Shown here: positions 15,759-44,837 of the stretch, one piece after another
How the letters are laid out: each line of letters opens with the position of its first letter
How positions within the stretch are numbered: the first letter of the stretch is position 1
DNA from: Aeromicrobium fastidiosum
Lineage (GTDB): Bacteria > Actinomycetota > Actinomycetes > Propionibacteriales > Nocardioidaceae
DNA length: 64,000 nucleotides
Reading direction: 5' to 3'
Assembly (NCBI RefSeq): GCF_017876595.1
Contig: NZ_JAGIOG010000001.1
Coordinates: 1,240,001 to 1,304,000 of the forward strand
Position numbers and translations under genes: made by a program
Notes under the pieces: generated by a model
Databases searched by the model: none
Seen by the model: the letters and a program-made list of their open reading frames with translations, nothing else
What the model was told of the DNA's origin: nothing

Positions 15759-15781
15759 CCAACTCAACGAAAGGCATCACC

Positions 15782-16809: not shown

Positions 16810-16991
16810 CCATCCCCCCGCTCCGCACCTTCCGCAAGGCGATCGCCGGCGGGCTCGCCACCGCTGCCGCGGCGATCGGCACCAGCTGCACCGACGGCAA
16901 CCTGACCGGCCCCGAGCTTGTCGCCGGCGTCGGTCTCGGCTTGGTCGCCGGCGCGACCGTCTACCTCACCCCACGAAACGCCAGCAGCTAG
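16806..16991 (+). CDS. Small membrane protein, second holin candidate
   Basis: 61 residues, ATGA overlap with the previous gene. Two hydrophobic stretches (AIAGGLATAAAAIGT and LVAGVGLGLVAGATVYL) joined by a short polar loop suggest two membrane spans. Last rightward gene of the prophage; its end overlaps the next, convergent gene by four bases. Confidence 0.65.
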   Translation: MTIPPLRTFRKAIAGGLATAAAAIGTSCTDGNLTGPELVAGVGLGLVAGATVYLTPRNASS

Positions 16992-17239: not shown

Positions 17240-17269
17240 GACGTCGGAACCTACCGGGTCGGTCGGTTC

Positions 17270-18303: not shown

Positions 18304-18345
18304 GCGACGCTCGCAAGGTGGCTCTGATCTGAGGTTTCGCTGGAA

Positions 18346-18382
18346 CAGAAGGTTAGGGGTTCGAATCCCTTCGGGCGCGCAG
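18346..18382. repeat. attR core (37-bp direct repeat)
   Basis: Exact copy of 1786-1822. Only the 3' half of the tRNA is present here, so it is not a second tRNA gene. The sequence immediately left is phage DNA encoding the viral-form repressor tail; right is the original downstream flank of the tRNA. Confidence 0.95.
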
Positions 18383-18387
18383 GACGA

Positions 18388-18419
18388 AGCCCCCCGCCTG
18401 TCACAGGCGGGGGGCTTTT
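18388..18419. terminator. Intrinsic terminator, originally of tRNA-Arg
   Basis: 13-bp perfect stem AGCCCCCCGCCTG (18388-18400) with its complement (18404-18416), three-base loop, then four T. Before phage insertion it lay just after the tRNA; it now lies 16.6 kb away. Confidence 0.85.
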
Positions 18420-18461
18420 CTGTCATCGCGGCCCTCGTGGGCGCCGTCGCCGCAGTTGCGC

Positions 18462-18569
18462 CGAGTGGCGCAATCCGGTGCCCGAGTGGCGCAGTTCCGC
18501 GGGACTCGCCGTCTCGAAATCGCGAACCTGCGCCACTCGGGGAGCCACATCGCGAACTTGCGCCACTCG
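18462..18569. repeat. Intergenic inverted repeat, GAGTGGCGC type
   Basis: CGAGTGGCGCA at 18462-18472 and 18483-18493 faces its complement TGCGCCACTCG at 18529-18539 and 18559-18569, so two direct copies face two inverted copies. A related element (GAGTGGTGC) lies at 21742-21823 on the other side of the same operon. Possibly a transcription end signal for the leftward operon. Confidence 0.7.
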
Positions 18570-29832: not shown

Positions 29833-31365
29833 GTGGCGAGAGCTCGCAGGCTGGGCAGTGACCTGCTGCTCGGCTCACCCGACCAGCCGAGCGGACGGTT
29901 GCGCATCCGCATCCAGGTCGTCCTGACGGTGCTCCTGGTGGCGACCAACGTCATCGGCGCGGTCATCGTCGTCGGCATCACGCTGCTCGTGACGCCGGGC
30001 GGCGGTCCCAACTCCGGCTACCTCACCGCGATGGCCATCGCGGTGCCCGTCTACGTCGGGGTCGCGGTGCTGATCGGTGCCGTCGTGGTGACAGCCAGCG
30101 CGTTGCGGGCACTGCGCTGGTCGATCGAGGACCAGGAGCCCACGGTCGATGAGCGACGCACCGCGCTGCGGCTGCCGTGGCGGCTGACGCTGATCCAGCT
30201 GGTGCTGTGGATGGGCGGTGTCACGACGTTCACGATCCTCGCGATCATCCTGCAGCCCGAGGCCGTGCTGGGCGTCGTGTTCGCGGTCGGCATCGCGGGG
30301 CTCGTGGTGTGCGCGATCGCCTACCTGTTCACCGAGTTCGCGCTGCGACCCATCGCCGCCCGGGCCCTGCAGGGGCGGGCGTCGGCCGACGAGATGGGCG
30401 TCGGCGTGCAGCGCCGCATGCTGGTGTTCTGGGGGCTCGGCACCGCCGCGCCGATCCTCGGCCTCGTCGTCGCGGCGCTCGCGGCGATCTCGCGCGACGA
30501 CACCAGCATCGTCCGGCTCGCCTCGACGGCGCTCGGGCTGGCCGGGATCGTGCTGATGTTCGGCCTGCTCGTGACGGTGCTCAACGCGCGGGCCGTCGTG
30601 TCGCCGATCATCGCGGTGCAGGAGGCGCTCGAGCGGGTCAAGGAGGGCGACTTCGACGTCGAGGTGCGGGTCGACGACGGCACCGAGCTGGGGCTGCTGC
30701 AGTCGGGCTTCAACGAGATGGCGCAGGGCCTGCGGGAGCGCGAGCAGATCCGTGACCTGTTCGGCCGGCACGTCGGGCAGGCGGTCGCGAAGGCCGCCAC
30801 CGACGGCAACATCGAGCTCGGCGGCGAGACCCGCACGGTATCGGTGCTGATGATCGACCTGATCGGGTCGACGACGTACGCGACGACGCGCTCGCCGGCC
30901 GAGGTCGTGGCGATGCTCAACCGGTTCTTCGCGGTCATCGTCGAGGAGGTCGACGGGCACCGAGGGCTCGTCAACAAGTTCATGGGCGACGCCGTGCTGG
31001 CGATCTTCGGCGCGCCCAACGAGCTCGACGACCACGCCGGGGCGGCGTTGTCCACGGCGCGCCGGATCGCGGAACGACTGGCCGAGGAGGTGCCCGAGAT
31101 CGGTGCCGGCATCGGCGTCTCGACGGGTCAGGCCGTGGCCGGCAACGTCGGGCACCGCTCGCGGTTCGAGTACACCGTCATCGGCGACGCGGTCAACGCC
31201 GCGGCGCGCCTCACCGAGCTGGCCAAGGAGGTCGAGGGCCAGGTGCTCGTGGCCACCGCGAGCGTCGAGGCCGCCACAGAGGACGAGCGACGCCACTGGA
31301 CGCCCGACGCCTCCCCGGTGCTCCGCGGCCGGTCGGAGCCGACCCCCACGTCCCGCCTCGCCTGA
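29833..31365 (+). CDS. Membrane class III adenylate/guanylate cyclase with HAMP domain
   Basis: 510 residues from GTG 29833 (GGAG upstream). Six predicted membrane segments, a HAMP domain (about 250-305, ending NEMAQGL), and a class III cyclase domain: metal-binding Asp in LMIDLIGST (about 341) and FMGDAVLAIFG (about 385), substrate Lys in NKFMGD, and IGDAVNAAARL transition-state residues. All key residues present. Architecture matches mycobacterial Rv1318c-like cyclases. Confidence 0.92.
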   Translation: MARARRLGSDLLLGSPDQPSGRLRIRIQVVLTVLLVATNVIGAVIVVGITLLVTPGGGPNSGYLTAMAIAVPVYVGVAVLIGAVVVTASALRALRWSIEDQEPTVDERRTALRLPWRLTLIQLVLWMGGVTTFTILAIILQPEAVLGVVFAVGIAGLVVCAIAYLFTEFALRPIAARALQGRASADEMGVGVQRRMLVFWGLGTAAPILGLVVAALAAISRDDTSIVRLASTALGLAGIVLMFGLLVTVLNARAVVSPIIAVQEALERVKEGDFDVEVRVDDGTELGLLQSGFNEMAQGLREREQIRDLFGRHVGQAVAKAATDGNIELGGETRTVSVLMIDLIGSTTYATTRSPAEVVAMLNRFFAVIVEEVDGHRGLVNKFMGDAVLAIFGAPNELDDHAGAALSTARRIAERLAEEVPEIGAGIGVSTGQAVAGNVGHRSRFEYTVIGDAVNAAARLTELAKEVEGQVLVATASVEAATEDERRHWTPDASPVLRGRSEPTPTSRLA

Positions 31366-31369
31366 CCCC

Positions 31370-31430
31370 GAGATGTCGGCACTTATCGACCTCGTCGATC
31401 CGTTCTGAGGTCGATGAGTGCCGACATCTC
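31370..31430. terminator. Convergent-gene inverted repeat (24-bp arms)
   Basis: Arms 31370-31393 and 31407-31430 are complementary over 24 bp except one base pair, core GAGATGTCGGCACT. Lies exactly between the cyclase and TetR stops, so it probably terminates both directions. No T-run. Confidence 0.7.
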
Positions 31431-31432
31431 GC

Positions 31433-32029
31433 TCACTGGAGCGGGTTCACGGCCCCCATCGCCTCGTCCAGCAGGGCGGCCAGGGACGTCTCTGGGTGGG
31501 TCGCCCAGGTGGTCTGGGCGACCTCGAGGCAGGCGATGGCGCTGCTGGTGACCGCCGCGGCCCGGAGGTCGGAACCGGACGACGCGTGCTGCCGAGGCAG
31601 TCGCTCGGCCACGAGGGGCGCGAGCAGCTCGAGCCACAGCCGTCGCCGGGCCTCGACCGTCGTGCGGAGCGCCGGCTCGTCGCGCAGCATGACCTGCAGC
31701 CGGCGCGACATGTCCTCGTGCTGTTCCTGCAGCGAGACCGTCTGGTCGAAGGCTGCGCGGAGGGCCGGCCATGCCGCCTCGTCGGCCGGACGGTCGCGCA
31801 GCGCGTCGGCGACGAGGCGGCCTGAGGCCACGATGCGGTCGAGCACGAGCTCGTCCTTGCCCGCGAAGTATCGGAAGAACGTGCGGCGCGACATGCCGGC
31901 GGCCTCGGCGATCTGGTCGACCGTCGTGGCCTCGAAGCCCTGCCGGGCGAACAGCGCCCAGGCCTGCTTCGACACCTCGTCGCGGACGGCTTCGCGGGCG
32001 TGGTCGCGCAGCGTCATCTCGGTGGGCAT
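31433..32029 (-). CDS. TetR-family regulator of adjacent efflux gene
   Basis: 198 residues; HTH TTVDQIAEAAGMSRRTFFRYFAGKDEL at about 35-60 is the classic TetR signature. Divergent from the MFS efflux gene 32136-33557, with an operator-like palindrome at 32068-32082 between them, so it most likely represses that transporter until a ligand binds. Confidence 0.92.
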   Translation of the reverse strand: MPTEMTLRDHAREAVRDEVSKQAWALFARQGFEATTVDQIAEAAGMSRRTFFRYFAGKDELVLDRIVASGRLVADALRDRPADEAAWPALRAAFDQTVSLQEQHEDMSRRLQVMLRDEPALRTTVEARRRLWLELLAPLVAERLPRQHASSGSDLRAAAVTSSAIACLEVAQTTWATHPETSLAALLDEAMGAVNPLQ

Positions 32030-32067
32030 GGCGCGAGTCTAGCCCCGGTGGCACGCAGAGACGAGAT

Positions 32068-32082
32068 TGGCACTCAGTGACA
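32068..32082. promoter_or_regulatory. Putative TetR operator
   Basis: TGGCACTCAGTGACA is a 15-bp near-palindrome (six of seven arm positions pair) lying between the divergent TetR and MFS genes. Confidence 0.6.
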
Positions 32083-32135
32083 GAATGGCTTATCGTTGCG
32101 CCGTCCTACCATCTGTCCGGAAGAAGAAGCTCGCC

Positions 32136-33557
32136 ATGACCGCACCGTCCGCCTCCGTCGCGGCACACACCTCGTCCCGCAGGGCGACCCTCGAGCTGTT
32201 CGTCGTCGGGCTGGGCGCACTCGTCGTGGCGCTGGCCCAGACGGTGCTGATCCCCGTGCTGTCGATCCTGCCGGCCGATCTCGACACCTCCGCCAGCAAC
32301 GTCAACTGGCTCCTGACATCGACCCTGCTCGTGGCGGCAGTCTCCGTCCCCATCCTCGGACGCCTCGGCGACATGTTCGGCAAGCGTCGGATGCTGCTCG
32401 TCGCGCTCGGCGCCCTGATCGTCGGATCGCTGATCACGTCGTTCAGCGACCACATCGGCGTGCTGATCGTCGGTCGCGCCATCCAGGGTGCGTCGGCCGC
32501 CGCGATCCCGCTCGGCATCAGCCTGCTCGCGACCGTCATGCCGCGCGAGCGCGTCGGGTCGAGCATCGCCCTGATCAGCGCGATGCTCGGCGTGGGCGGT
32601 TCGCTGGGCTTGCCGCTGGCCGGTTTCGTGGCCGAGCACGCCGACTTCCACGTGCTGTTCTGGATCACCAGCGCAGCCGGCATCGTGGCCTTCCTCGGCA
32701 TCCTGCTGATCGTCCCCGAGGCGCCGGGCCGTAGTGGCGGCCGCGTCGACCTCGTCGGTGCGGCGCTGCTCGCTGCCGGCCTCGTCTGCCTGTTGCTCCC
32801 GCTCGCCCAGAGCTCGTCGTGGGGCTGGGACGACGTGCGGGTGTGGGGTCTGCTGGCCGCCGCGGCGGGGCTCATCGCCGTGTTCGGATGGAGCCAGACC
32901 CGCATCGACGACCCCTTGGTCGACCTCCGGGCGCTGCGTCGTCCGCCGATCGTCCTGACCAATGCCGCCTCGATCCTGTTCGGCTTCGCCCTGTTCGCCT
33001 CGTTCATCGGCACCGCGTCGTACGTCGAGGCCCCCGAGTCGAGCGGCTACGGCTTCGGCTCGAGCCTGCTGGTCGGCGGCCTGGCGATGCTGCCCGGTGG
33101 CCTCATGATGCTGCTGTTCGCACCTGTCGCCGCCAGGCTCATCGGCACCCGCGGGGCACCGCAGACCCTCGCCCTCGGCGCGCTGGTCGTGGCCGTCGGA
33201 TTCGCCGCCCGCATCTTCGTGCACGAGTCGCTGTGGCAGGTCATCGTGGGATCGACCATCGTCGGCGTGGGCACGGGCATCGGGTACGCCGCGATGCCGT
33301 CGCTGATCAACACGCACACGCCTCCCGACGAGACGGGTGCCGCCAACGGCCTCAACACCCTGTTCCGCAGTCTCGGCAGCTCGCTGGCCAGCGCGATCGG
33401 CGGCAGCATCCTGGCGGGCTCGACCGTCATCGTCGGCACCTTCGCGGTGCCCTCGCTCGACGCGTACCGGCTGATCTTCGCGCTCTGCGGCGCAGCGGCG
33501 GTGCTGGCGGCGGCCTTGGTCATGCTGATCCCGCACCGACCGGCGGCTGCTGCCTGA
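32136..33557 (+). CDS. MFS drug-efflux transporter (EmrB/QacA type)
   Basis: 473 residues from ATG 32136. Twelve to fourteen membrane segments; loop 2-3 motif GRLGDMFGKRR (motif A), RAIQGASAAAIPLGISLLATVMPRE-like segment 4-5 (motif B/C region) and GPT-like GGSLGLPLAGFVAEH in segment 5. Proton-driven export of small molecules. A longer reading frame starting at 32067 would overlap the operator and lacks a good start. Confidence 0.88.
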   Translation: MTAPSASVAAHTSSRRATLELFVVGLGALVVALAQTVLIPVLSILPADLDTSASNVNWLLTSTLLVAAVSVPILGRLGDMFGKRRMLLVALGALIVGSLITSFSDHIGVLIVGRAIQGASAAAIPLGISLLATVMPRERVGSSIALISAMLGVGGSLGLPLAGFVAEHADFHVLFWITSAAGIVAFLGILLIVPEAPGRSGGRVDLVGAALLAAGLVCLLLPLAQSSSWGWDDVRVWGLLAAAAGLIAVFGWSQTRIDDPLVDLRALRRPPIVLTNAASILFGFALFASFIGTASYVEAPESSGYGFGSSLLVGGLAMLPGGLMMLLFAPVAARLIGTRGAPQTLALGALVVAVGFAARIFVHESLWQVIVGSTIVGVGTGIGYAAMPSLINTHTPPDETGAANGLNTLFRSLGSSLASAIGGSILAGSTVIVGTFAVPSLDAYRLIFALCGAAAVLAAALVMLIPHRPAAAA

Positions 33558-33570
33558 GCTGGTGCCCTGT

Positions 33571-33611
33571 CGACAGGCTCAAGGGGCGGCGGCCTTTCGA
33601 CAGGCTCAGGG
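33571..33611. repeat. Dispersed repeat CGACAGGCTCAAGG, two copies
   Basis: Copies at 33571-33584 and 33598-33611 (second with CAGGG). The same element occurs at 27248-27261 and inverted at 52360-52373. The second copy includes the NUDIX stop codon. Confidence 0.75.
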
Positions 33612-34259
33612 GGCGAAGGGGCCGCTCAGGACGGCCCACTGCAGCAGCATGATGGTCTTGGCGTCGACCACGGTCGTGCCGATGCCGGCGAGCGCCTCGT
33701 CGACCGTCAGCTCGACCAGCTCGATGTCCTCGCCCTCGGCCTCGATGCCGTGGTGGGTACCGTCGACGTCGTCGCGCACGTAGGGGGCGGCGTAGAAGTG
33801 GATCTTCTCGGTCACCGAGCCGGGGCTCATGAAGACGTCGAAGACGTGCTCGACCTCGCCGACGGCGACCCCGGTCTCCTCGGCGGCCTCGCGGCGAATC
33901 GCGGTCTCCGGATCGTCCTCGTCGAGCAGGCCCGCGGGTGTCTCGAGCAGCATTCCGTCGGGGTGCCCGTTGACGTAGACGGGGTAGCGGAACTGGCGGG
34001 TCAGTAGCACCGTGCGCCGTGAGATGTCGTGCAGCAGGATCGTCGCGCCGTTGCCCCGGTCGTACGTCTCGCGGCGCTCGGTGCGCCACGTGCCGTCGGA
34101 TCCGCGGATGTCGAGGGTCGTCGCACGCACGACGTACCAGTCGCTCGCGAGCAGCTCGACGTCCTTGACGACGACATCGGGGTTGCGGTCGAGACCCAGC
34201 CCCGTGAGGTGCAGGCCCGTGCGGCCGCGGCGATCGGGCTGGTCCACTCCGGCAGTCAT
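33606..34259 (-). CDS. NUDIX hydrolase, NudK/ADP-sugar type
   Basis: 217 residues from ATG 34259. The Nudix box GLLDEDDPETAIRREAAEETGVAV (about 118-141) has every conserved Gly, Arg and Glu. The preceding LLTRQFRYPVYVNG and following SPGSVTEKIHFYAA match nucleoside-diphosphate-sugar pyrophosphatases such as NudK. Mg-dependent cytosolic housekeeping hydrolase. Confidence 0.9.
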   Translation of the reverse strand: MTAGVDQPDRRGRTGLHLTGLGLDRNPDVVVKDVELLASDWYVVRATTLDIRGSDGTWRTERRETYDRGNGATILLHDISRRTVLLTRQFRYPVYVNGHPDGMLLETPAGLLDEDDPETAIRREAAEETGVAVGEVEHVFDVFMSPGSVTEKIHFYAAPYVRDDVDGTHHGIEAEGEDIELVELTVDEALAGIGTTVVDAKTIMLLQWAVLSGPFAP

Positions 34260-34344
34260 GCGACAACCCTGACACGCGGTCGGTGCGGCGGGCGCACCTG
34301 CTCGACCCGTGCGAGTGTGGAGGCCCGACCGATGGGAGCACGCC

Positions 34345-35142
34345 ATGGCCGCGTCACTCGAGAACGCCGATCGTCACCCCCTGTGGGCCCTGCAGCGGCA
34401 CCTCGTCGAGCGCCACGTCTGGACCGACCTGACGCACGCGTTCCACCCCGGGCAGCCGCACTTCCCGGCGTTCCCCGACGAGGAGCGCACCCAGGTCTTC
34501 GACGTCGCCGCCGACGGCTTCGCGGTGCACCGGCACACGATCGTCGGTCAGTGGGGCACGCACGTCGACCCGCCGTCGCACTTCGTCGACGGCGCGCGGA
34601 CGCTCGACGCCATCCCCGTCGACCAGATGATCCTTCCGCTCGTGGTGCTCGACATCTCGCACCGCGTCGCCTCCGACCCCGACGCCGTGCCGACCCTGGC
34701 CGACCTCGCCGGATGGGAGCAGCGCAACGGGACCGTGCCGGCCGGGTCGTTCGTCGCGCTGCGCACCGACTGGTGGAAGCGCTGGCCCGATGCGGCGGCG
34801 ATGGAGAACCGCGACGCCGACGGTGTCAGCCACGCACCCGGTTGGTCGCGTGAGGTGCTGGAACGGCTCGTCGACGCGGGTGTCACGGCGGTGGGGCACG
34901 AGCAGACCGACACCGATGCCGGCAGCTCCACGTCGGCCGGCGACTACGGGCTCGAGCTGTTCTGGCTCCAGAACGACCGGTGGCAGATCGAGCTCATGGC
35001 CCGGCTCGACGAGGTGCCCGAGGCCGGTGCGCTCGTCGTCGCGTCATGGCCCAAGCCGCGAGAGGGCTCCGGGTTCCCGGCACGCGTCTTCGCGATCCAT
35101 CCCGCCGCTGCCGAGCCGTCCGACCCACCGCGCTGGGCCTGA
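34345..35142 (+). CDS. Cyclase/formamidase-family protein
   Basis: 265 residues from ATG 34345 (GGGAG eight bases upstream). The metal-binding signature of the Cyclase family, HxGTHxDxPxH, appears as QWGTHVDPPSHF at about residues 70-81: the first His is replaced by Gln/Trp, the GTHxDxPxH remainder is intact. Family members include kynurenine formamidase; substrate here unknown. Its stop lies within the inverted repeat that follows. Confidence 0.82.
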   Translation: MAASLENADRHPLWALQRHLVERHVWTDLTHAFHPGQPHFPAFPDEERTQVFDVAADGFAVHRHTIVGQWGTHVDPPSHFVDGARTLDAIPVDQMILPLVVLDISHRVASDPDAVPTLADLAGWEQRNGTVPAGSFVALRTDWWKRWPDAAAMENRDADGVSHAPGWSREVLERLVDAGVTAVGHEQTDTDAGSSTSAGDYGLELFWLQNDRWQIELMARLDEVPEAGALVVASWPKPREGSGFPARVFAIHPAAAEPSDPPRWA

Positions 35143-35193
35143 CGTTCCCGCAGACACGCCGCCGGCGTGTCTGCACGAACGTCAGGCCCAGCG
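35131..35193. terminator. Convergent-gene inverted repeat (about 30-bp arms)
   Basis: CGCTGGGCCTGACGTTC (from 35131) faces its complement ending at 35193, with the inner stem CAGACACGCC/GGCGTGTCTG. It sits between the converging cyclase-family and STAS genes and overlaps the former's stop codon. Likely bidirectional terminator. Confidence 0.72.
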
Positions 35194-35197
35194 GGGA

Positions 35198-35530
35198 TCA
35201 GGCGGACGCGGCCTCCTCGACCGTCGGGTACAGCGTGAAGACCTCTTCCATGCCCGTGATCGACAGGACGCGCCGGACGATCGAGCTGGCCCCCGCGATG
35301 CGGAACTGGCCCTCGTCGCGGGTCAGCTGCCACCCGCTCACGAGGGCGCCGAGGCCCGAAGAATCCATGAAGTCGACCCCCGACAGGTCGATGATGATGC
35401 GTGCCGCCGGGTCGTCCACGCGGTCGACGATGTGCGATCGCAGGGTGCGGGCGGTCTCGACGTCGATGTCGCCGGTCAGCTCGATGACGTGGAAGTCGCC
35501 GCTCGCGCGGTCGGCGATGGTCAGGCTCAT
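35198..35530 (-). CDS. STAS-domain anti-sigma factor antagonist
   Basis: 110 residues. IIIDLSGVDFMDSSGLGALVSG carries the phosphorylatable Ser of SpoIIAA/RsbV proteins. When dephosphorylated such proteins bind the anti-sigma kinase and release the sigma factor. Overlaps the phosphatase gene by ATGA, so the pair is cotranslated: phosphatase output should act on this protein. No RsbW-type kinase is seen in the window. Confidence 0.92.
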   Translation of the reverse strand: MSLTIADRASGDFHVIELTGDIDVETARTLRSHIVDRVDDPAARIIIDLSGVDFMDSSGLGALVSGWQLTRDEGQFRIAGASSIVRRVLSITGMEEVFTLYPTVEEAASA

Positions 35531-37815
35531 GCGGATCCCTCGGTGTGGTCAGGTCGTGCGGCGGACCGGCGCAGGGCGACGATCGTGAGGTCGTCGTCGA
35601 GCGTGCCCGGGACGGCGGTGAGCAGGTCGTCGATCCAGTCGTCGAGGGTCGCCGACCGGTCGGATCCGGCGGCGGCAGCCGCCAGCCGGTCGATCGAGAC
35701 GTCGATCTCGATGCCGCGGCGCTCGACCAGCCCATCGGTGTAGGCCAGCAGGATGTCGCCCGCCGCCAGCGTGAGCCGGTCGGTGCGGGCCGCGCCGTGG
35801 GCGACGCCCAGCAGGGGACGCCCGGCCTGCTGGAGCGGGCGGCACACGCCGTCGCTCAGCACGAGGGGCGGCGGGTGGCCGGCGTTGGCGAGCTCGACCT
35901 CGCCCGTGCGCGGGTCGAGGGCGATCACGACGACCGTCGCGGTCTGCCCGGGCAGCATCGACTGCACCAGCACGTCGAGACGATCGACGCAGTCGGCGGG
36001 CGAGTGCCCGTCGATCATGTAGGCACGCAGCGCGGTGCGCACCTGCGACATCGCCGTCGCGGCCGTGACGCCGTGGCCCGCGACGTCGCCGACGCTGATG
36101 GCCAGGCGACCGTCGGGGAGCGAGAAGGCGTCCCACCAGTCACCGCCCAGCTGGCTGCCCTTGGCCGGCCGGTAGCGTGCGAGGACGTCGTGGCCCTCGA
36201 CCGCGGGCGCCTCGTCGAGGACGACGGTGCGCTGCAGCGACTCGGCGATCGCGGTGTGCTCGTGCGTGCGGCGCAGCAGCTCGCTCGACAGGTGCTCGCG
36301 CAGGCTCTCGGCGACGGCGACCTGCCAGCTGGTCCACGGGGCACTGCGACCGCGCACGACCTGGCGCCACTTGGCGAACGACTTGCGGGGGCTGAGCCGG
36401 ACGTTGGGGTCCTCGGCCAGGGCCAGTGCCTTGTTGGTCGGGTCGCCGCCCCAGTCGACCGTCCGCTCGATCTCGGGACGTAGCCACAGCATCCACCGGT
36501 CGGGTCCGTTGCCGATGTGCAGCGCCCCGGCCGCGACGTCGGCGACACGGGCCAGCTCGGGTGCGAGCGACGACAGGCGGTGGGTCGAGGTGGCACGCCC
36601 GGACGCTCCGCCCAGCTGACGCGCGATGACGTGCAGATCGGCCTCGGGGGGCACCTCCCCCCGGGTCAGCAGGCGACCGTCGACGTGCAGCGCGACGCCC
36701 TGCGCGTCGACGAGCGAGAGCAGACGAGGGTCGTCGATCAGGGCGTCGTAGACGGGGCGGGTGTCGGCCGCGAGCGCGGCGGTGAGGCGTGCCAGCGCGA
36801 CGCTGGCCCGCAGCTCGTCGACGTGACCGTCGGCCTTCTCGCGGTCGTCGATCAGCTGCGACGCCGTCTGCCCGAGGAACTCCGCGGCGGACCGGGCGTC
36901 GTAGGGCACCCGCAGGGGGCCGGAGTAGTGGTGGCACGCGACGAGCCCCCACAGCAGCCCGTCCTTGACCATCGAGACCGACATCGACGCGTCGACGCCC
37001 ATGTTGGACAGGTACTCGATGTGGATCGGCGACACGCTGCGCAGCACCGAGTGCGACAGGTCGAGCGGGGCACCGGTGCCGGGGTCGACAACGGGCTCGA
37101 GCGCGACCGGGACGTAGTGGATGTCGGCGATGAGCCGGGTCCAGTTGACGGTGTAGAGCCGCCGGGCCTGGGCCGGGATGTCGGTCGCGGGATAGTGCAG
37201 GCCGAGGAACGGGTTGAGGTCGTCGCGGCGGTCCTCGGCGACGACCTCGCCGTTCCACTCCTCGTCGAAGCGGTAGACCATGACGCGGTCGAAGTCGGTC
37301 AGCAGCCGGATCTCCGACGCGAGCTGCTGGCAGAGCTCGGCGGTGGTGGAGGTCTGCGTCAGCCGGGTGACGGCGGCCCGGGCCGACCGGTACGACACGG
37401 TCTGGGTCGGCACCGGCACCGAGACGGGCTCCACCTCGACGACGACGCGGCTGCCGGACCGGTGGACGATCAGGTCGACCTCGCTGCCCGCGAGGCCCCC
37501 GGCACCCGGCGGCATCGTGGTGCGCAGCGGCGTGCCCATGTCGTCGGCCTCGACGGCCCGCGCGACGAGCTGGTCCGGGCCGGGACCCAGCACGTCGCGA
37601 AGGTGCTGGTCGACGGGTCCCTGCCCCGCCGGGCCCAGCAGCCGCGCGCAGTTGGCCGATGCCATGACGACGACGTGGTCGGCGTCGAGAGCGAGCAGCA
37701 GACCGTGCGGCTGGATCGCCCCCGGGACGTGGATCGGCTCGCGATCGCACGTCGTCAGGTCGGGCGACGAGTAGGCCGGCGTGTGGCTGGCGGTGGTGTG
37801 CGGAGCAGGGGTCAC
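35527..37815 (-). CDS. Bacteriophytochrome with PP2C (SpoIIE) phosphatase output
   Basis: 762 residues from GTG 37815 (GGGAGAGAGA upstream). PAS domain with TTCDREPIHVPGAIQPHG: Cys23 is at the biliverdin-attachment position of bacteriophytochromes. GAF domain with DFDRVMVYRFDEEWNGEVVAEDRR and YPATDIPAQARRLY (PxSDIP variant, Thr for Ser). PHY domain with PRKSFAKWRQVVRGRS tongue. C-terminal SpoIIE phosphatase: GGDWWDAFSLPDGRLAISVGDVAGHG and AYTDGLVERRG, metal Asp residues present. Red/far-red light should set phosphatase activity on the neighbouring STAS protein. Confidence 0.94.
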   Translation of the reverse strand: MTPAPHTTASHTPAYSSPDLTTCDREPIHVPGAIQPHGLLLALDADHVVVMASANCARLLGPAGQGPVDQHLRDVLGPGPDQLVARAVEADDMGTPLRTTMPPGAGGLAGSEVDLIVHRSGSRVVVEVEPVSVPVPTQTVSYRSARAAVTRLTQTSTTAELCQQLASEIRLLTDFDRVMVYRFDEEWNGEVVAEDRRDDLNPFLGLHYPATDIPAQARRLYTVNWTRLIADIHYVPVALEPVVDPGTGAPLDLSHSVLRSVSPIHIEYLSNMGVDASMSVSMVKDGLLWGLVACHHYSGPLRVPYDARSAAEFLGQTASQLIDDREKADGHVDELRASVALARLTAALAADTRPVYDALIDDPRLLSLVDAQGVALHVDGRLLTRGEVPPEADLHVIARQLGGASGRATSTHRLSSLAPELARVADVAAGALHIGNGPDRWMLWLRPEIERTVDWGGDPTNKALALAEDPNVRLSPRKSFAKWRQVVRGRSAPWTSWQVAVAESLREHLSSELLRRTHEHTAIAESLQRTVVLDEAPAVEGHDVLARYRPAKGSQLGGDWWDAFSLPDGRLAISVGDVAGHGVTAATAMSQVRTALRAYMIDGHSPADCVDRLDVLVQSMLPGQTATVVVIALDPRTGEVELANAGHPPPLVLSDGVCRPLQQAGRPLLGVAHGAARTDRLTLAAGDILLAYTDGLVERRGIEIDVSIDRLAAAAAGSDRSATLDDWIDDLLTAVPGTLDDDLTIVALRRSAARPDHTEGSA

Positions 37816-38003
37816 GGGCGTCTCTCTCCCAAGGAGCACCGCCTGCTGGCTCAACCGGTTCCCGGCCACGGTATCGGTAGTGGCCTCCGCCCGCGTGTCA
37901 GGCCACGCAGGACCTGCACGGCGTCCTGCAGCAGCTCGGCGGGCGGGCAGGGAAAGGATGCTCCCTGATACCCCGCCCGCCGGGTGCTCGACCCTCGTGG
38001 TTG

Positions 38004-38522
38004 CTACTTCTTGTGCTCGCCGTCGACCGGCTCACCGACGACGTCGGTCGGTGCCGGCGGGGGCGTGGTGGCGGCCGGACGCGGCGCGGGGGCCACATAG
38101 GGCGCAGGAGCGTCGCCGCGGCGCTTCAGGATCGCGAAGGCCGCTGCCCCGGCACCCGTCAGGATGCCCACGGCCGCGACGCGACGCAGACGCTTGCGCG
38201 GCGGCTTGACCTTCTCGGGCAGACGATCCTGCACGGGCTCGGGCAGCCGGTTGAAGAGGTCGTCGCGCAGGTCGAGCAGCTGGTGCCTGTCGGGCAGGTG
38301 CGCGGCGATCTGGTCACGGACGGCGGGTGCGCGGTCGGCGACCTGCTTGCGCAGGTCGTCGGAGTGCTTGCGCAGCTCGCCGGTCTGCTCGAGGATCTGG
38401 TCGCGGACGACCGGTGCGCGGTCGGCCACCTGCTTGCGCAGGTCGTCGGTCTGGGAGGCCAGATCGCTGAGCTGAGCCTCCAGCTTGTCGCGCAATGTCT
38501 TCTTCTTGAACGGCCTGGTCAT
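38004..38522 (-). CDS. Coiled-coil protein with one membrane segment and internal repeat
   Basis: 172 residues. DDLRKQVADRAPVVRDQI (about 26-43) is repeated as DDLRKQVADRAPAVRDQI (about 54-71), helical heptads. A basic segment (KPPRKRLRRV) precedes one membrane span (AAVGILTGAGAAAFAIL), then a Pro-rich tail. Function unknown; apolipoprotein-like or YtxH-like stress proteins have this look. Confidence 0.8.
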   Translation of the reverse strand: MTRPFKKKTLRDKLEAQLSDLASQTDDLRKQVADRAPVVRDQILEQTGELRKHSDDLRKQVADRAPAVRDQIAAHLPDRHQLLDLRDDLFNRLPEPVQDRLPEKVKPPRKRLRRVAAVGILTGAGAAAFAILKRRGDAPAPYVAPAPRPAATTPPPAPTDVVGEPVDGEHKK

Positions 38523-38574
38523 GTCGTGCTCCCTTGTTCATCTCGTGGTTCAACGGTGGTCTGGGTCGTCCCGG

Positions 38575-39531
38575 TCACGACGACGGTGACGTCTCGACAC
38601 TGTCATCTCTCGCCCCGTCGTGCTCGATGGTGTCAGATCGTGGGTTGCCTGAACCCAGCTCGGCGAGTGGGTCCTTGCGGCGCTTCATGCGCGTGACGAC
38701 CTCGTCGAGGGTCAGCTGACGCAGGTCTGGGCCGAGCTCTCGCCACGTGCGGGGCACCGCGACCTGCGGGGTCGTCGTGCCGCGCAGCGAGTAGGGCGCG
38801 ACTGTCGTCTTGTTGCCGTTGTTCTGGCTCCAGTCGACCAGCACCCGTCCGACCCGCTCGCTCTTGCGCATCGAGCTCACGACCAGGTCGGGCAGCTCCG
38901 ACTCGAGGGTCTGGGCGACCTGGTGGGCGAAGGCGTTGACGTAGTCGGAGTCGTGCGTGCCGTCGAGGCGCGCGTACAGGTGGATGCCCTTGCTGCCGCT
39001 CGTCACGGGCAGCGCGCTGAGGCCGATGTCGCTCAGCAGCCGCTTGGCGCGCCGGGCGACGTCCACGCACTCGGGCAGGCCCGTACCGGGCCCGGGGTCG
39101 AGGTCGAGCACGAGCCGGTCGGGGTGACGGCGGGCGTCGCCGCGTCCGACCCGCCACTGCGGCACGTGCAGCTCGAGCGCCCCGACCTGCCCCGCCCAGG
39201 CGAGCGCCGCCGCGTCGTCGAAGACGGGATAGGCGTTGGTGTGGTCGCTGTGCTCGATCGTGACGCGGCGGATCCACGACGGTGCCGACTCCGGCAGGTT
39301 CTTCTCGAAGAACACCTCGCCGGGACGTCCGGCGGTGCCGACGCCGTCGACCCAGCGCTTGCGGGTGACGATGCGATCGGCGACGTAGGGGAGCAGGTGC
39401 GGGGCGATCGCGACGTAGTAGGCGATGACGTCCGCCTTGGTCGTCCCCGTGGCGGGGTAGACGACCTTGTCGGGGTGGGTCAGGCGCAGCCGGTGACCGC
39501 CGATCGAGACGTTCTCGACGCTGCTGGCCAT
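38575..39531 (-). CDS. LigD-type polymerase/primase domain protein
   Basis: 318 residues. Archaeo-eukaryotic primase fold of bacterial end-joining: catalytic DLDPGPGT (about 143-150), SGSKGIHLYARL (about 172-183), SQNNGNKTTVAPYSLRG (about 236-252). It stands alone, without ligase or nuclease domains, as in mycobacterial and streptomycete LigD-Pol proteins. Ku is encoded 2.7 kb away (42277-43203). It fills gaps during non-homologous end joining. Confidence 0.93.
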   Translation of the reverse strand: MASSVENVSIGGHRLRLTHPDKVVYPATGTTKADVIAYYVAIAPHLLPYVADRIVTRKRWVDGVGTAGRPGEVFFEKNLPESAPSWIRRVTIEHSDHTNAYPVFDDAAALAWAGQVGALELHVPQWRVGRGDARRHPDRLVLDLDPGPGTGLPECVDVARRAKRLLSDIGLSALPVTSGSKGIHLYARLDGTHDSDYVNAFAHQVAQTLESELPDLVVSSMRKSERVGRVLVDWSQNNGNKTTVAPYSLRGTTTPQVAVPRTWRELGPDLRQLTLDEVVTRMKRRKDPLAELGSGNPRSDTIEHDGARDDSVETSPSS

Positions 39532-39764
39532 CGGATGTCCCCTCGCAGTCGGCAGGTCGGCACGTGTCTCAGCGAATCCTTACCCCGGGCCCGGCCGACG
39601 AAACCCCTCCGGCCGGAGCAGTTCTGCCCGATGTGGTCCGATCGGACCACCTGACGTAGTTATTTCCTACTGAACAAGTCTTGCGCAACCTTGCCGATCA
39701 GTGCGATGGTGGCAGAGCTGGTTGAGCAGATGCCCGCACTGGATCAAGACCCAGGAGGGTTTCC

Positions 39765-40544
39765 GTGCATTCTGCTCCCGCACACACATCGATCCACACC
39801 GACGACGCCGACGTCACGTCGCTGCTCGAGGCCGCCGCAGCCGCGGAGCCCGCCGAGCGCACGCGCCTCGAGGACGAGATCGTCCGCCGTCACCTCGGAC
39901 TCGCCCGTCACCTCGCAGGCCGCTACGCGGGTCGAGGCGTCGACCGCGACGACCTCGTCCAGGTCGCCAACTTCGCGCTCGTCAAGGCCATCCGTGGCTT
40001 CCACCACGACCGCGGCGAGTTCGTGCCGTTCGCGACCGTCACGATCCTCGGCGAGATCAAGAAGCACTTCCGCGACCACTGCTGGAGCGTGCGCCCGCCG
40101 CGCCGCATCCAGCAGCTGCAGGCTGACATCACGGCAGCGTCCGAGCGTCGGCTGCAGAGCGACTCGCGCACCCCGCTGGTCGCCGACATCGCGAACGACG
40201 TCGACGCCTCGGAGGCCGACGTCCGCGAGGCCATGGCAGCTCGTGGATGCTTCTCGCCGACGTCGCTCGACCAGCCGATCCGCGAGGGCGGCCAGCCGCT
40301 CGGCGAGACGCTGAGCTGGGAGGAGACCAGCTACGCGTTCATCGACGACTGGGTCACGGTCGGCCCGCTGTGCCAGGACCTCAGCGACGACGAGCGTGAG
40401 CTGCTGCGGCTGCGGTTTGTCGAGGAGCGCACGCAGCAGGAGATCGCCGACCTGGTCGGCGTCAGCCAGATGCAGGTGTCGCGCCGCCTCACCAAGCTGC
40501 TCGAGCAGCTGCGGTCGCGCGCCGCCGTGGACGACGCGGCCTGA
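39765..40544 (+). CDS. SigB/SigF-family RNA polymerase sigma factor
   Basis: 259 residues from GTG 39765 (GGAGGG ten bases upstream). Region 2 LARHLAGRYAGRGVDRDDLVQVANFALVKAIRGFHHDRGEFVPFAT, region 3, and region 4 QQEIADLVGVSQMQVSRRL. Group 3 sigma factors of this type are freed by partner switching, so it fits with the STAS and phytochrome-phosphatase genes 2-4 kb upstream. The 230 bases before it hold no gene and no obvious SigB-type promoter. Confidence 0.93.
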   Translation: MHSAPAHTSIHTDDADVTSLLEAAAAAEPAERTRLEDEIVRRHLGLARHLAGRYAGRGVDRDDLVQVANFALVKAIRGFHHDRGEFVPFATVTILGEIKKHFRDHCWSVRPPRRIQQLQADITAASERRLQSDSRTPLVADIANDVDASEADVREAMAARGCFSPTSLDQPIREGGQPLGETLSWEETSYAFIDDWVTVGPLCQDLSDDERELLRLRFVEERTQQEIADLVGVSQMQVSRRLTKLLEQLRSRAAVDDAA

Positions 40545-40654
40545 TCGTCCCGGGGGGTCGGTCTCGCCGGGCACGATCGGCTGGCGCTTGGTAGCGTCTT
40601 CTTGCCGGTTCAGCAGCAGCCGTTGGCTTCGTGCTGTCCTGAAAGGCTCGTCGT

Positions 40655-40879
40655 TTGACCCGCATCACCCTGAGATTCGCGCTCAGCGGACCTGAAGCGC
40701 AAGCAGATCTGTTGCGCGAGTTCGCCATGCACGACGGGGTCGAGATCAGGCCAGCTGTGCAGGCGGGAGCGCCCGTCATCGAGGTCGAGACCTTCGACAC
40801 CGTCACGACCGCGTGGGACGTGCGCGCGACGGTCGGGATGTTCGACGACGCCGCCGTCGAGCTGGACGGTCAGGAGTGA
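40655..40879 (+). CDS. Small hypothetical protein
   Basis: 74 residues from TTG 40655 (GAAAGG about 10 bases upstream). Starts MTRITLRFALSGPEAQADLLREF and ends VELDGQE, alpha/beta pattern of a ferredoxin-like or ACT-like fold. No function recognised. Convergent with the next gene, overlapping it by 10 bases. Confidence 0.6.
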   Translation: MTRITLRFALSGPEAQADLLREFAMHDGVEIRPAVQAGAPVIEVETFDTVTTAWDVRATVGMFDDAAVELDGQE

Positions 40880-41382
40880 CCGCGGTGCCGCCCGGGCGCG
40901 TAGGTCTGCGTCGAGAAGGAGGGCGCGGACGTCCACGCCTCCTGGTGCCCGATCTCGTCGGCGATGGCCGAGGCCAGGTCGGTCGGCCGGATCATCGGCA
41001 CGGCGTCGCCGTCGCCCGTCCGCAGCCCGAGGGGGGAGTGCCAGATCATCGACACGTCGTGGTGGTCTCCGCAGCGGCGGCACAGCTCGTCGAACCGGGC
41101 GCGCAGGTTGTCGTCGTCCGACGTCGCGGACACGACGACGACGTGCGTCGGTGCCACGTCGCGGGAGGCGAGGTCGGCCATCGCGTGCTCGCCGGGCACG
41201 GTGTCGATGCGGACGATCGCGTTGGTCACCGAGGTCAGCCAGCCCGTGCGGGTCGTCACGGCGTGGGTGCTGCAGCCGCGTCGCCCGAGCTCGTCGCTCA
41301 GAGCGGCGTCGAGCAGGTCGCGCACGCCGAACAGCGTCACCGTCGGGCCCGAGAGGTGAAGGTCGGTGGTCAAGAGAGCCAT
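40870..41382 (-). CDS. Hypothetical protein, Rossmann-like N-terminal part
   Basis: 170 residues; TVTLFGVRDLLDAALSDELGRRGCST at the N-terminus and THVVVVSATSDDDNLRARFDELCRRCG mid-protein suggest an NAD-binding-like alpha/beta fold without the usual glycine motif. Tail is Ser/Thr/His-rich. Function unknown. Confidence 0.65.
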   Translation of the reverse strand: MALLTTDLHLSGPTVTLFGVRDLLDAALSDELGRRGCSTHAVTTRTGWLTSVTNAIVRIDTVPGEHAMADLASRDVAPTHVVVVSATSDDDNLRARFDELCRRCGDHHDVSMIWHSPLGLRTGDGDAVPMIRPTDLASAIADEIGHQEAWTSAPSFSTQTYAPGRHRGHS

Positions 41383-41570
41383 CCCTTCGTCGGAGTCGCG
41401 ATGACCGGTGCCATCTGTCCGGACGACCTCATATGCTTGGGTCGGCGGCGCTCCGGGTCAGAAGTACCCTTGACCTCGGCGCACAAACCATGGTCGACGA
41501 TGCCGGTCGGTCGCCCCGCCGGGCCGAGGTCGTCATGACCAGGCGCATAGACCTCCGAAAGGCCTCCGCG

Positions 41571-42284
41571 ATGGACACCTCGACGTTCTTCTCCGAGATG
41601 GCGCTCGACCTGCACGACGCGCCGAATGCCGAGAGCACGATCGAGCGCATCGCGGAATACGCCAAGATCGCGACGAGCTGCGACGAGGCCGGCATCATGC
41701 TGGTCCACGCGCGCAACCAGATCGAGACGGCCGCCGCGACGTCGAAGCGGGTCGGCGAGTCGCACAACCTGCAGATCGTCCACGACGAGGGCCCGTGCCT
41801 CGACGCGATCGAGGGTCAGGACCACTACATGTCCGACGACGTCAGCGTCGACCCCCGGTGGGAGAAGTGGGGGCCCGCGGTCGCCGAGCTCGGCATGCGC
41901 AGCGTGCTCAGCCTGCGCCTGGCCACCAAGTCCCGACGCTACGGCTCGCTCAACCTCTACGCCGAGAAGGTCGGTGCCTTCGACGATGATGACCTCGCGG
42001 TCGCGACGATCTTCGTGCGGCACGCGTCGATCGCGATCGCCAACGCCCACAACGAGGAGGGCCTGCAGGTCGCGATCGACGCGCGCAAGCTCATCGGCCA
42101 GGCGCAGGGCATCCTCATGGAGCGGTTCAGCATCGATGCCGACCGGGCCTTCGAGTTCCTGCGCCGGCAGTCGCAGACCCACAACGTCAAGCTGCGCTAC
42201 GTCGCAGAGTGGGTCGTCGACCACCGCAACTCGCCCGATGCGACATTCTCGGTGCCCGACGACCAGAGCCAGCCCGTCAGCTAG
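41571..42284 (+). CDS. GAF-ANTAR RNA-binding antiterminator
   Basis: 237 residues from ATG 41571 (GAAAGG nine bases upstream; ATG 41535 is an alternative). A GAF sensor domain (about 15-160) and a C-terminal ANTAR domain (about 165-220: IDARKLIGQAQGILMERFSIDADRAFEFLRRQSQ), the fold that binds paired hairpins to block termination. Common actinobacterial layout; targets not visible here. Confidence 0.92.
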   Translation: MDTSTFFSEMALDLHDAPNAESTIERIAEYAKIATSCDEAGIMLVHARNQIETAAATSKRVGESHNLQIVHDEGPCLDAIEGQDHYMSDDVSVDPRWEKWGPAVAELGMRSVLSLRLATKSRRYGSLNLYAEKVGAFDDDDLAVATIFVRHASIAIANAHNEEGLQVAIDARKLIGQAQGILMERFSIDADRAFEFLRRQSQTHNVKLRYVAEWVVDHRNSPDATFSVPDDQSQPVS

Positions 42285-43203
42285 CCCGCTTCTTGGCCGG
42301 AGCCTTCTTGGCGGCGGACTTCTTCGCGGCCTTCTTGGCCGGCGTCTTCTTCGCGGCAGCCTTCTTGGCAGGGGTCTTCGGGGTCTTCGTCGCCGCGGCC
42401 GATGACGTCTTCTTCGCGGTCTTCTTGCGATCGATGCTGCGCTTGAGGGCCTCCATCAGGTCGACGACGTCCGCATCGTCCGCATCGTCGTCCTGCTCGC
42501 CGAACGTCGCATCGGTGTCGAGCGCGGCACCCTGCTCGAGCTTGGCCTCGACGAGGGTGCGCAGCTGCTCCTGGTACTCGTCGGTGAAGGCGGCGCTGTC
42601 GAAGTCGCCGGTCAGCGAGTCGACCAGCTGGGCGGCCATGTCGCGCTCCTTCTGGCTGATGCGGGGGGTCTCGCCCAGCACGTCGAAGGCAGGGGAGCGC
42701 ACCTCGTCGTCCCACAGCAGGGTCTGCAGCAGCAGGACGTCGCCCCGCACGCGCAGCGCGGCGAGCCGGGTCTTCTGCCGGAGCGCGAACCGCACGATCG
42801 CGGTGCGGTCGGAGTCCTCCAGGGCGCGCCGCAGCAACGTGTACTGCTTGAGGGTCTTGGCCTCCGGCTCGAGGTAGTAGCTCTTGTCGAGGCGGAGCAG
42901 GTCGACCTGCTCCGCCGGCACGAACTCGACGACCTCGATCTCGTGGTTGCGCTCGGCCGGCAGCGACTTGAGATCGGCATCGGTGAGGATGACGGTCTGC
43001 TGGCCGTCGTCGTAGGCCTTGTCGATGTCGCTGTACTCGACGACCTCGCCGCACACCTCGCAGCGCCGCTGGTAGCGGATGCGGCCACCGTCCTTGGCGT
43101 GCACCTGGTGCAGGGGCACGTCGTGGTTCTCGGTGGCGCTGTAGACCTTGACCGGGACGCTCACCAGCCCGAAGCTGATCGCGCCCTTCCAGATGGATCG
43201 CAT
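42277..43203 (-). CDS. ku: Ku protein for non-homologous end joining
   Basis: 308 residues, MRSIWKGAISFGLVSVPVKVYSAT at the start, RYQRRCEVCGEVVEYSDIDKAYD in the core. It binds broken DNA ends and recruits LigD. The last ~50 residues are Lys/Ala repeats of the type KKTPAKKAA, a histone H1-like tail known from Ku of other actinomycetes. Start 43203 has GGAGG abutting the ATG. Convergent with the ANTAR gene, overlapping it by eight bases. Confidence 0.95.
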   Translation of the reverse strand: MRSIWKGAISFGLVSVPVKVYSATENHDVPLHQVHAKDGGRIRYQRRCEVCGEVVEYSDIDKAYDDGQQTVILTDADLKSLPAERNHEIEVVEFVPAEQVDLLRLDKSYYLEPEAKTLKQYTLLRRALEDSDRTAIVRFALRQKTRLAALRVRGDVLLLQTLLWDDEVRSPAFDVLGETPRISQKERDMAAQLVDSLTGDFDSAAFTDEYQEQLRTLVEAKLEQGAALDTDATFGEQDDDADDADVVDLMEALKRSIDRKKTAKKTSSAAATKTPKTPAKKAAAKKTPAKKAAKKSAAKKAPAKKRAS

Positions 43204-43273
43204 CCTCCAGTCAATCGCGACCCCGCGCGGTGCGCAACGCAGGCGCGACGAGGACGTCCGGGCGAGCTGCGAG

Positions 43274-43999
43274 TCAGCGGGAGAAGAAGCGTCGCCGGGG
43301 GGCCTCCGGCGGAGGGATCTCGACGAAGCCGGGGTCGTAGGGCTCGAGACCGCGCTCGATGCGTGGTCGCAGAGCAGTGACGGCGGCAGCCGGGTCGTCG
43401 AACGGGATGCCCGCGAGCTGGTTGGGCGAGTGCCGCCACCACTGCAGGGCGATGAGCTCGTCACGCAGCTCGTCGGGGAGGCGCTTCTTGATGACCTTGG
43501 CCGGGAGGCCTCCGCAGATCGTGTACGGCGGCAGGTCCTTCGTGACGACGGCATTGGCCGCGACGATGCAGCCGTCGCCGATCGTGACGCCGCGCAGCAC
43601 GACGACGCCGGCACCGAGCCACACGTCGTTGCCGATCGATGCGCGGTCGGGTCCGACGCTGCGGAACGACTGGCGTCCGTCCTTCTCCGGGTCGATGACC
43701 TCGGACTCGGCGGCGGCCGGGTGCCAGCCCCACGTCGCCTGCTTGTACTGGAACGCCGAGACGCCCATCCAGGTCAGCGGGTGACCCGTGGCACCGACCG
43801 TCGAGTTGTTGCCGATCTCGCTGTACCGGCCGATGTCGGCGGCCTGCACCTCGACGTGCTGGCCGAACTCCGTGAAGCACCCGACGCGCGTGTCGGACCG
43901 CAGCAGCAGGTCTCCGAGCACCCGCACGGGGGGCTCGACGAGCAGTCGGGACGACCCGACTCGACGGACGTGATGCTCTCCACGGATGTGCTCGGACAC
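43274..43999 (-). CDS. Hexapeptide-repeat acyltransferase (CatB-like)
   Basis: 241 residues. Left-handed beta-helix repeats: IGRYSEIGNNSTVG, IGNDVWLGAGVVVLRGVTIGDGCIVAANAVVTKDLP, then the typical end ICGGLPAKVIKKR. Family of xenobiotic acyltransferases (CatB) and surface-sugar acetyltransferases; the substrate is unknown. Confidence 0.9.
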   Translation of the reverse strand: MSEHIRGEHHVRRVGSSRLLVEPPVRVLGDLLLRSDTRVGCFTEFGQHVEVQAADIGRYSEIGNNSTVGATGHPLTWMGVSAFQYKQATWGWHPAAAESEVIDPEKDGRQSFRSVGPDRASIGNDVWLGAGVVVLRGVTIGDGCIVAANAVVTKDLPPYTICGGLPAKVIKKRLPDELRDELIALQWWRHSPNQLAGIPFDDPAAAVTALRPRIERGLEPYDPGFVEIPPPEAPRRRFFSR

Positions 44000-44022
44000 T
44001 CCCGGAGACTATCGTCAGCCCG

Positions 44023-44649
44023 ATGACACGGACCTGGCACGCTCTCGTCGCGGCCCTGACCGCGGTCGCCCTCGTCGGGCAGACGGTCATCACGATCGAC
44101 GAGGGCCGGTCGTTGGCCAACTTCCTCAGCTACTTCACGATCGAGTCGAACATCCTCGTGCTGGTGACCTCGCTGCTGCTGGTGCAGCGACCCGATCGCG
44201 GCGGCACGGCGTTCGGCGTCCTGCGGCTCGCGAGCCTGACCGCGATCACCGTGACGGGCCTGGTCTACGCCACGGTGCTCGCCGGCAACGGCAGCTTCGA
44301 GGGCGCCGAGTGGTGGTACGACAAGATCTTCCACTACGTCGTACCGGCCATGTCGGTCATCGGCTTCGTCGCGCTGACGCCGCGCACCCGGCTCGACCGG
44401 ACGGCGATGTGGGCGCTGGCCTTCCCGGTGGCCTGGCTGGCCTACACCTTGGTGCGGGCCGAGGTCGCCGAGCCGGTCTTCGTCCTGACGCCCACCACGA
44501 CGGCCCCCGTCCCCTACGGCTTCCTCGACGTCGCCGATCTCGGAGGCGTGACGGTCACCGTCATCTGCCTCGCACTGACCGCGGTGGCCGTCGCGATCTC
44601 GACCGGATACGTCTGGCTGAGTCGCGGCGTTGGCGCTCGAAGGCGCTGA
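44023..44649 (+). CDS. Pr6Pr-family membrane protein
   Basis: 208 residues, six membrane segments; FLSYFTIESNILVLVTSLLL and WWYDKIFHYVVPAMSVIGF are typical of this FAR-17a/AIG1-like family (conserved Thr and His in the membrane). Eukaryotic relatives hydrolyse hydroxy-fatty-acid esters; bacterial roles unknown. Confidence 0.82.
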   Translation: MTRTWHALVAALTAVALVGQTVITIDEGRSLANFLSYFTIESNILVLVTSLLLVQRPDRGGTAFGVLRLASLTAITVTGLVYATVLAGNGSFEGAEWWYDKIFHYVVPAMSVIGFVALTPRTRLDRTAMWALAFPVAWLAYTLVRAEVAEPVFVLTPTTTAPVPYGFLDVADLGGVTVTVICLALTAVAVAISTGYVWLSRGVGARRR

Positions 44650-44837
44650 ATCAGTAGGTGGAATCGCTCCTGAGGACCTGATCCGTCGTGGCTGTTCGGC
44701 TCGACCACGAAATCGATTGACCCGGTAGGTGCGCCCCCATACGGTTGACATGTCGCGTCACCGCGGCGGCCGCACCTGTCTCCAGTGGGGGCAGTGCCGC
44801 CGAGAGTTCTGCACCACACCACATGAGGAGCTGCCGC

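Follow-up and report, generated by a model that had tools for sequence, protein, structure and literature searches.

A phytochrome-phosphatase beside a SigF-type sigma factor and end-joining genes in Aeromicrobium fastidiosum: a predicted route from red light to stress response and repair

Relation to described partner-switching and light-responsive systems

Partner switching in Bacillus subtilis involves the sets RsbU/RsbP-RsbV-RsbW-SigB and SpoIIE-SpoIIAA-SpoIIAB-SigF (PMC11418112). The locus considered here, from Aeromicrobium fastidiosum, encodes a bacteriophytochrome fused to a SpoIIE/RsbU-type phosphatase, an RsbV-like anti-sigma antagonist (the STAS protein) and, nearby, a SigB/SigF-type sigma factor. 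As in the B. subtilis systems, the PPM phosphatase motifs are intact, the STAS protein has a phosphorylatable Ser, RsbW/SpoIIAB-like kinases are encoded in the genome and the sigma factor comes closest to the SigB/F/G type; by contrast with them, the input is a phytochrome, the kinase gene lies away from the sigma locus and an end-joining polymerase gene is in the predicted regulon (PMC11418112). The window, i.e. the whole stretch of DNA analysed, has 64,000 nucleotides and spans 1240001-1304000 of a genome that is a single contig of 3.93 Mb; coordinates below are those of the window unless given otherwise.

The multidomain regulator Rv1364c of Mycobacterium tuberculosis has a phosphatase/STAS make-up and a link to SigF; unlike the protein at this locus, it is not known to have a phytochrome module. 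Its residues 255-380 (PDB 3ke6) are matched by a kinase of 140 aa encoded at 400.6 kb of the A. fastidiosum genome, and a SpoIIE-HATPase hybrid of 1256 aa, also from this genome, has a similar plan.

SpoIIE/PPM outputs form one effector class among bacteriophytochromes (PMC9587094), and the protein described here shares their architecture, which in the available part of that source is only a category in a phylogeny; here the fusion also comes with a STAS gene coupled to it, with candidates in the genome for the partner kinase and with a sigma gene nearby for which targets are predicted. Red light is reported to activate SigB in Bacillus and Listeria, where no phytochrome-like protein was found and no receptor is identified (PMC3019169); a path from red light to a SigB-type sigma factor is likewise proposed here, with the difference that the locus offers a phytochrome as candidate receptor. 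In Sphingopyxis granuli, ku-ligD belongs to the EcfG general stress regulon (PMC7083833), a likeness to the end joining under a general-stress sigma factor predicted here, although the S. granuli sigma factor is ECF-type and the part of the paper available states no phytochrome link. A B12-bilin photoreceptor has been suggested to be linked to STAS/SpoIIE proteins in Saccharothrix (PMC10979010). No description of a phytochrome with a SpoIIE/STAS partner switch beside a stress sigma factor was found in the titles and abstracts of the Creative Commons-licensed PubMed Central literature; each element is known, and it is the combination that was not found described in that limited literature. What is new here, as read from the DNA, is the position of the sigma gene within a conserved end-joining block, with conserved predicted SigF-type promoters before orf170 (encoding a 170 aa protein) and the LigD polymerase gene.

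Sequence and conservation show a photosensor-phosphatase, a coupled STAS gene, the genome's single SigF-type sigma factor and conserved SigF-type promoters of LigD and orf170 that track it; light control of the phosphatase, the STAS protein as its substrate, the identity of the kinase and the link to the sigma factor are inferred. Taken as a full chain, the locus would constitute, with a probability of roughly 0.55, a red/far-red branch of a partner-switching cascade releasing a SigF-type general-stress sigma factor that transcribes the divergent end-joining polymerase gene. Biliverdin from the genome's heme oxygenase would bind Cys23 of the phytochrome, and light would raise or lower the activity of the fused phosphatase. 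The phosphatase would very probably dephosphorylate the coupled STAS protein, which would then capture an RsbW-like kinase, the best candidates being those at 400.6 kb (140 aa) or 1135.4 kb (146 aa). The sigma factor may so be set free, this being the weakest step, and, as conservation suggests, it would read GTTT-N15-GGGTA promoters of the LigD polymerase gene, orf170 and scattered stress genes.

Repair is probably under the influence of light. The specific proposal that a red/far-red signal determines the cell's capacity to join the ends of double-strand breaks, through the phytochrome-phosphatase, the SigF-type sigma factor, and LigD polymerase plus orf170, an error-prone repair kit being prepared from a light cue that accompanies sunlight and drying, is tentative and falls somewhat short of even odds. 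The locus joins a phytochrome to a partner-switching phosphatase next to the sigma gene, and the two promoters proposed to depend on the sigma factor (LigD polymerase, orf170) are predicted at single-base precision, so that control by red light, both of a general stress sigma factor and of end joining, can be tested directly in an environmental bacterium that can be cultivated; if the chain is true, light may help set the repair readiness of a soil actinobacterium.

The phytochrome-phosphatase and its STAS protein

35527..37869, minus strand: bacteriophytochrome PAS-GAF-PHY fused to SpoIIE/RsbU-type PPM phosphatase (Pfam domains, motifs, structure alignment)
35198..35530, minus strand: RsbV-like anti-sigma antagonist (STAS), 110 aa (PF01740, TIGR00377, motif, structure match)

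An earlier note, made from the sequence alone, had recognised a PAS-GAF-PHY photosensor with a biliverdin Cys at residue 23, fused to a SpoIIE phosphatase, and profile searches bear this out. The gene starts at GTG 37869 (780 aa) or GTG 37815 (762 aa); PAS_2, GAF, PHY and SpoIIE each score over their Pfam cut-offs, with PAS, GAF and PHY in the order of bacteriophytochrome photosensory modules, and the candidate Cys is residue 23 when numbered from GTG 37815. The photosensor motifs PATDIP (at 209), WGGDP and PRKSF (at 476) are present, i.e. both a PxSDIP-like and a PRxSF motif. The SpoIIE domain is complete (PF07228, 153 bits, profile positions 1-191 of 192), with metal-binding Asp motifs, those of the phosphatase being GGDW (557), GDVAGHG (576), TDGL (693) and DDLT (741). 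The protein does not reach the BphP histidine kinase equivalog NF041576 (353 bits against a cut-off of 1040), the output here being SpoIIE. The Thr in place of Ser in the GAF motif, pointed out in the same note, is there; plant phytochromes have PATDIP, and we rejected the Thr as an oddity, regarding it as ordinary.

It might be that the module binds another ligand, or signals redox state or temperature, independently of light; light absorbance is only predicted for this protein, and some other bacteriophytochromes signal non-light cues. Such a sensor is improbable here, given that the Cys, GAF and tongue motifs are intact and that some 500 residues of the protein can be aligned with BphP photoreceptors of known structure (387 bits). 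Moreover, the heme oxygenase anticipated by the earlier note is encoded in the genome (PF01126, 167 bits, by profile search), and in four relatives (L147, L155, L158, L161) its gene adjoins that of the phytochrome, the arrangement expected for chromophore supply. Domain counts over the genome gave one PHY, one PF01126 and four SpoIIE matches over cut-off.

The pairing of the phosphatase with an RsbV-like gene, also claimed from the sequence, is equally clear. The STAS start codon overlaps the phytochrome stop by 4 bases (ATGA); the protein scores 79 bits with PF01740 (cut-off 22.6) and 91 bits with TIGR00377 (cut-off 53.45), has the phospho-site motif DSSGL, with its phosphorylatable Ser, from residue 56, and finds its best solved-structure match in an anti-sigma factor antagonist. 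The closest named relatives of the phytochrome are from Aeromicrobium endophyticum (83%) and Aeromicrobium sp. Root472D3 (81%), and a STAS gene occupies the same position in nine other loci of the genus. Across the family, for which all tallies are over 149 genomes sampled from a larger family, a STAS gene lies directly 3' of the phytochrome gene at 10 of 37 other loci besides our own (counts checked by tblastn), and an RsbW-like kinase gene within 3 kb of it at 7 of 37. The tandem of phytochrome, STAS and kinase genes within about 0.75 kb in one Nocardioides genome (G090) is the best evidence in support of the fusion working in a partner switch.

Two ideas on transcription of the phytochrome gene were rejected: sigma-driven self-activation, a SigF-type box preceding the gene at none of 36 loci, and a GGGTAT upstream of it as promoter, because this sits within a hairpin that, by eye, resembles a terminator.

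The sigma factor and its predicted promoters

39765..40544, plus strand: SigB/SigF-type sigma factor, 259 aa (TIGR02980; Pfam regions 2, 3, 4)
39581..39604, minus strand: predicted SigF-type promoter GTTT-N15-GGGTA, 50 bases from the start codon of the LigD polymerase
38575..39531, minus strand: stand-alone LigD primase-polymerase, end joining (PF21686 285 bits, TIGR02778 261 bits)
41465..41488, minus strand: predicted SigF-type promoter GTTT-N15-GGGTA, 83 bases from the start codon of orf170
40870..41382, minus strand: orf170, conserved 170 aa, predicted sigma target (predicted Rossmann-like alpha/beta fold)

A sigma gene of this type had been placed some 2 kb beyond the phytochrome gene, and the gap is about 1.9 kb. 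Regions 2, 3 and 4 are over Pfam cut-offs and the best family is SigB/SigF/SigG, though the TIGR02980 score (197 bits) is below the formal cut-off (234). It is the single SigF-type sigma factor found in the genome: as a query it returns only itself at E 1e-30, and sigma region 3 occurs at only three places. Orthologs (at least 69% identity) are present in 13 of the 149 family genomes.

The pattern GTTT-N(13-17)-GGGTA occurs exactly twice in the window, against 0.13 expected, both times with a spacer of 15 and facing genes of the block; the spacer was first noticed here, and relatives were then scanned at 13-17 and at 5-30. In the sigma-ortholog genomes the predicted SigB/SigF-type promoter stands upstream of orf170 in 13 of 13 and of LigD in 12 of 13, always with spacer 15, the exception being G134, which has the sigma gene and lacks the LigD box. 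In the 48.8 kb scanned from these genomes there are 25 matches at spacing 15 and two at all other spacings from 5 to 30, and the bases flanking the boxes are only 31-35% identical. When LigD loci of the genus were compared (30 loci of 56 matches in 45 genomes), the box was found at 17 of 18 with the sigma gene adjoining and at none of 12 without it (Fisher 1.5e-7, relatedness uncorrected). Control of the LigD polymerase gene by this sigma factor is a well supported prediction.

That the boxes belong to another factor and merely lie beside the sigma gene is very improbable. The assignment to this sigma factor is a prediction from sequence, a second SigF-type sigma factor is encoded in five of the 13 ortholog genomes (G140, G144, G126, G063, G130), and G134 departs from the pattern as described; against this, the LigD box follows the sigma gene over the loci compared, and the boxes are present in eight genomes with a single SigF-type sigma match. 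The box also resembles the SigB/SigF consensus.

The 13 genomes taken whole contain 96 matches to the N15 pattern, of which 25 are block promoters, against 22 for a reversed control. For the remaining boxes the genes downstream were predicted with a simple score for reading frames, and some are probably not genes; the target clusters do not include boxes whose best frame had too low a score or that were too close to the end of a stretch. Recurring downstream genes are those for GlgE (5 genomes), a BrkB-family membrane protein, a small methyltransferase, a PF14518 iron-containing redox enzyme and a 100 aa protein (4 genomes each), topoisomerase IB, DUF6458 and a 192 aa protein (3 each), and catalase, AIM24, Sua5/YciO and a SpoIIE-kinase hybrid (2 each). 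As five genomes have a second SigF-type sigma factor, some of their boxes may serve that one. In the A. fastidiosum genome a loose pattern with spacers of 8-24 gave no overall excess (24 matches against 29 in the reversed control), the excess being confined to spacers 15 and 16 (13 of the 24, of which two lie in rRNA-like copies of a repeat kind). The picture is of a sigma factor that would serve a general-stress regulon with a repair arm.

Elsewhere in the genome, divergent near-consensus SigF-type boxes are present at G000:C1:1813208 and 1813213 (L034), the minus-strand one preceding a gene for a PF14518 redox enzyme, a recurring target in relatives. At two other loci of the family (L154 and L156, in G108 and G029) a GTTT-N16-GGGTA precedes kinase-domain genes near a phytochrome; in L154 a SigF-type sigma gene lies about 6 kb away.

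Kinases, linkage and the end-joining block

The anti-sigma kinase was said in the earlier note not to be in view, and no RsbW-like kinase was found in window positions 30001-45000, so none is at the sigma locus; its suggestion that one be sought in the genome is answered by seven HATPase_c_2 matches whose own score exceeds the cut-off, of which four are strong. Two genomic kinases match RsbW/SpoIIAB or Rv1364c structure chains, weakly. A further kinase is encoded at 1545.7 kb, and the 1256 aa hybrid has a kinase end as well. A second RsbW-like kinase is encoded in 13 of 17 phytochrome-bearing genomes of the genus against 1 of 20 without a phytochrome (Fisher 1.4e-5, relatedness uncorrected, counts tallied by hand). 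The 140 aa kinase at 400.6 kb, its gene tail to tail with another STAS gene, groups with second kinases from phytochrome-bearing genomes in a tree with few columns and several long branches, and for this reason is the first candidate for the phytochrome's partner. By contrast, the type of the 146 aa kinase at 1135.4 kb occurs in nearly every genome of the genus, G121 and G145 among them (neither with a sigma match at E 1e-30). Seven sigma-ortholog genomes (G130, G142, G118, G112, G109, G115, G134) have no kinase match other than this one, which makes it the better candidate for holder of the sigma factor.

The step from partner switch to this sigma factor is proposed because of proximity and of its sole-sigma status in the genome: in all seven genomes of the genus with both, the sigma gene lies 2.2-6.1 kb from the phytochrome gene, and the linkage is kept though the intervening genes differ. 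It may be instead that two neighbours belong to two circuits, the sigma gene and end-joining block being an old stress module, while the phytochrome and STAS protein drive another kinase whose target, another regulator or a non-transcriptional output, is not this sigma factor. Several observations weigh against the single cascade or in favour of separate circuits. The phytochrome is absent from 6 of 13 sigma-ortholog genomes and the sigma ortholog from 10 of 17 phytochrome-bearing ones, so neither needs the other; a SigF-type sigma gene is within 9 kb at only 7 of 37 other family phytochrome loci; and the seven linked genomes are close relatives, so that a single ancestral placement could explain all. 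The phytochrome gene has no SigF-type box at the 36 loci scored, a terminator-like inverted repeat (by eye) separates it from the preceding gene for a 172 aa protein, and G130 has phytochrome and sigma genes, with no adjacent STAS gene found and a single kinase match. The lack of a kinase gene at the sigma locus points the same way, as does the difference between the kinase type that tracks the phytochrome (400.6 kb) and that present in every sigma genome (1135.4 kb); should the two kinases be distinct, light could act on the sigma factor only by way of cross-talk or of a STAS protein common to both, which is the main gap in the proposed cascade. Separate circuits are a real possibility, if a doubtful one, considering that this is the sole SigF-type sigma factor of the genome, a type held by RsbW-like kinases, and that the linkage has survived changes in the genes between. 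We continue to prefer the single light-to-sigma cascade.

38004..38522, minus strand: 172 aa helical protein, conserved behind LigD in the block (no confident family match)
41499..42281, plus strand: GAF-ANTAR protein, putative RNA-binding antiterminator, conserved in the block (profile search)
42277..43203, minus strand: Ku, conserved in the block (profile search), without a SigF-type box upstream

In relatives the recurring order is Ku, GAF-ANTAR, orf170, sigma, LigD polymerase and the 172 aa helical protein, with the phytochrome behind the block in some and absent there in others. The earlier suggestion that the end-joining genes are perhaps part of the regulon is supported for the LigD polymerase, with its conserved box tracking the sigma gene, but not for Ku, which was rejected as a direct target because no SigF-type box precedes it, either in the exact-pattern scan or with a promoter matrix trained without the A. 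fastidiosum locus. The structure model of orf170 is fair (mean pLDDT 82.6), and in the PDB no fold match to it reached E 0.001. In G103 the stretch between phytochrome and sigma has gained genes for an ATP-dependent ligase, a DksA/TraR zinc-finger protein and a PAS-SpoIIE phosphatase, and LigD also has a phosphoesterase domain.

At two loci of another genus of the family (L164 and L165, in G023 and G050) a phytochrome-phosphatase gene is also near Ku and LigD polymerase genes, possibly an independent link between phytochrome and end joining. The 1256 aa hybrid (G000:C1:1803588-1808700, L034) has PAS, GAF, histidine kinase, receiver, SpoIIE and HATPase_c_2 parts and is followed by a STAS frame, with the gene of an ATP-dependent DNA ligase on the opposite strand: another input to partner switching, next to a ligase of the end-joining type. 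A GTTT-N15-GGGTA box precedes the hybrid in G140 and G144.

Further away in the window, the GC skew is negative for about 16 kb after a tRNA-Arg gene (1747-1820), and a 270 aa frame on the minus strand near 18 kb resembles, by reading and without a family search, a tyrosine recombinase; 1747-18500 may be an integrated element.

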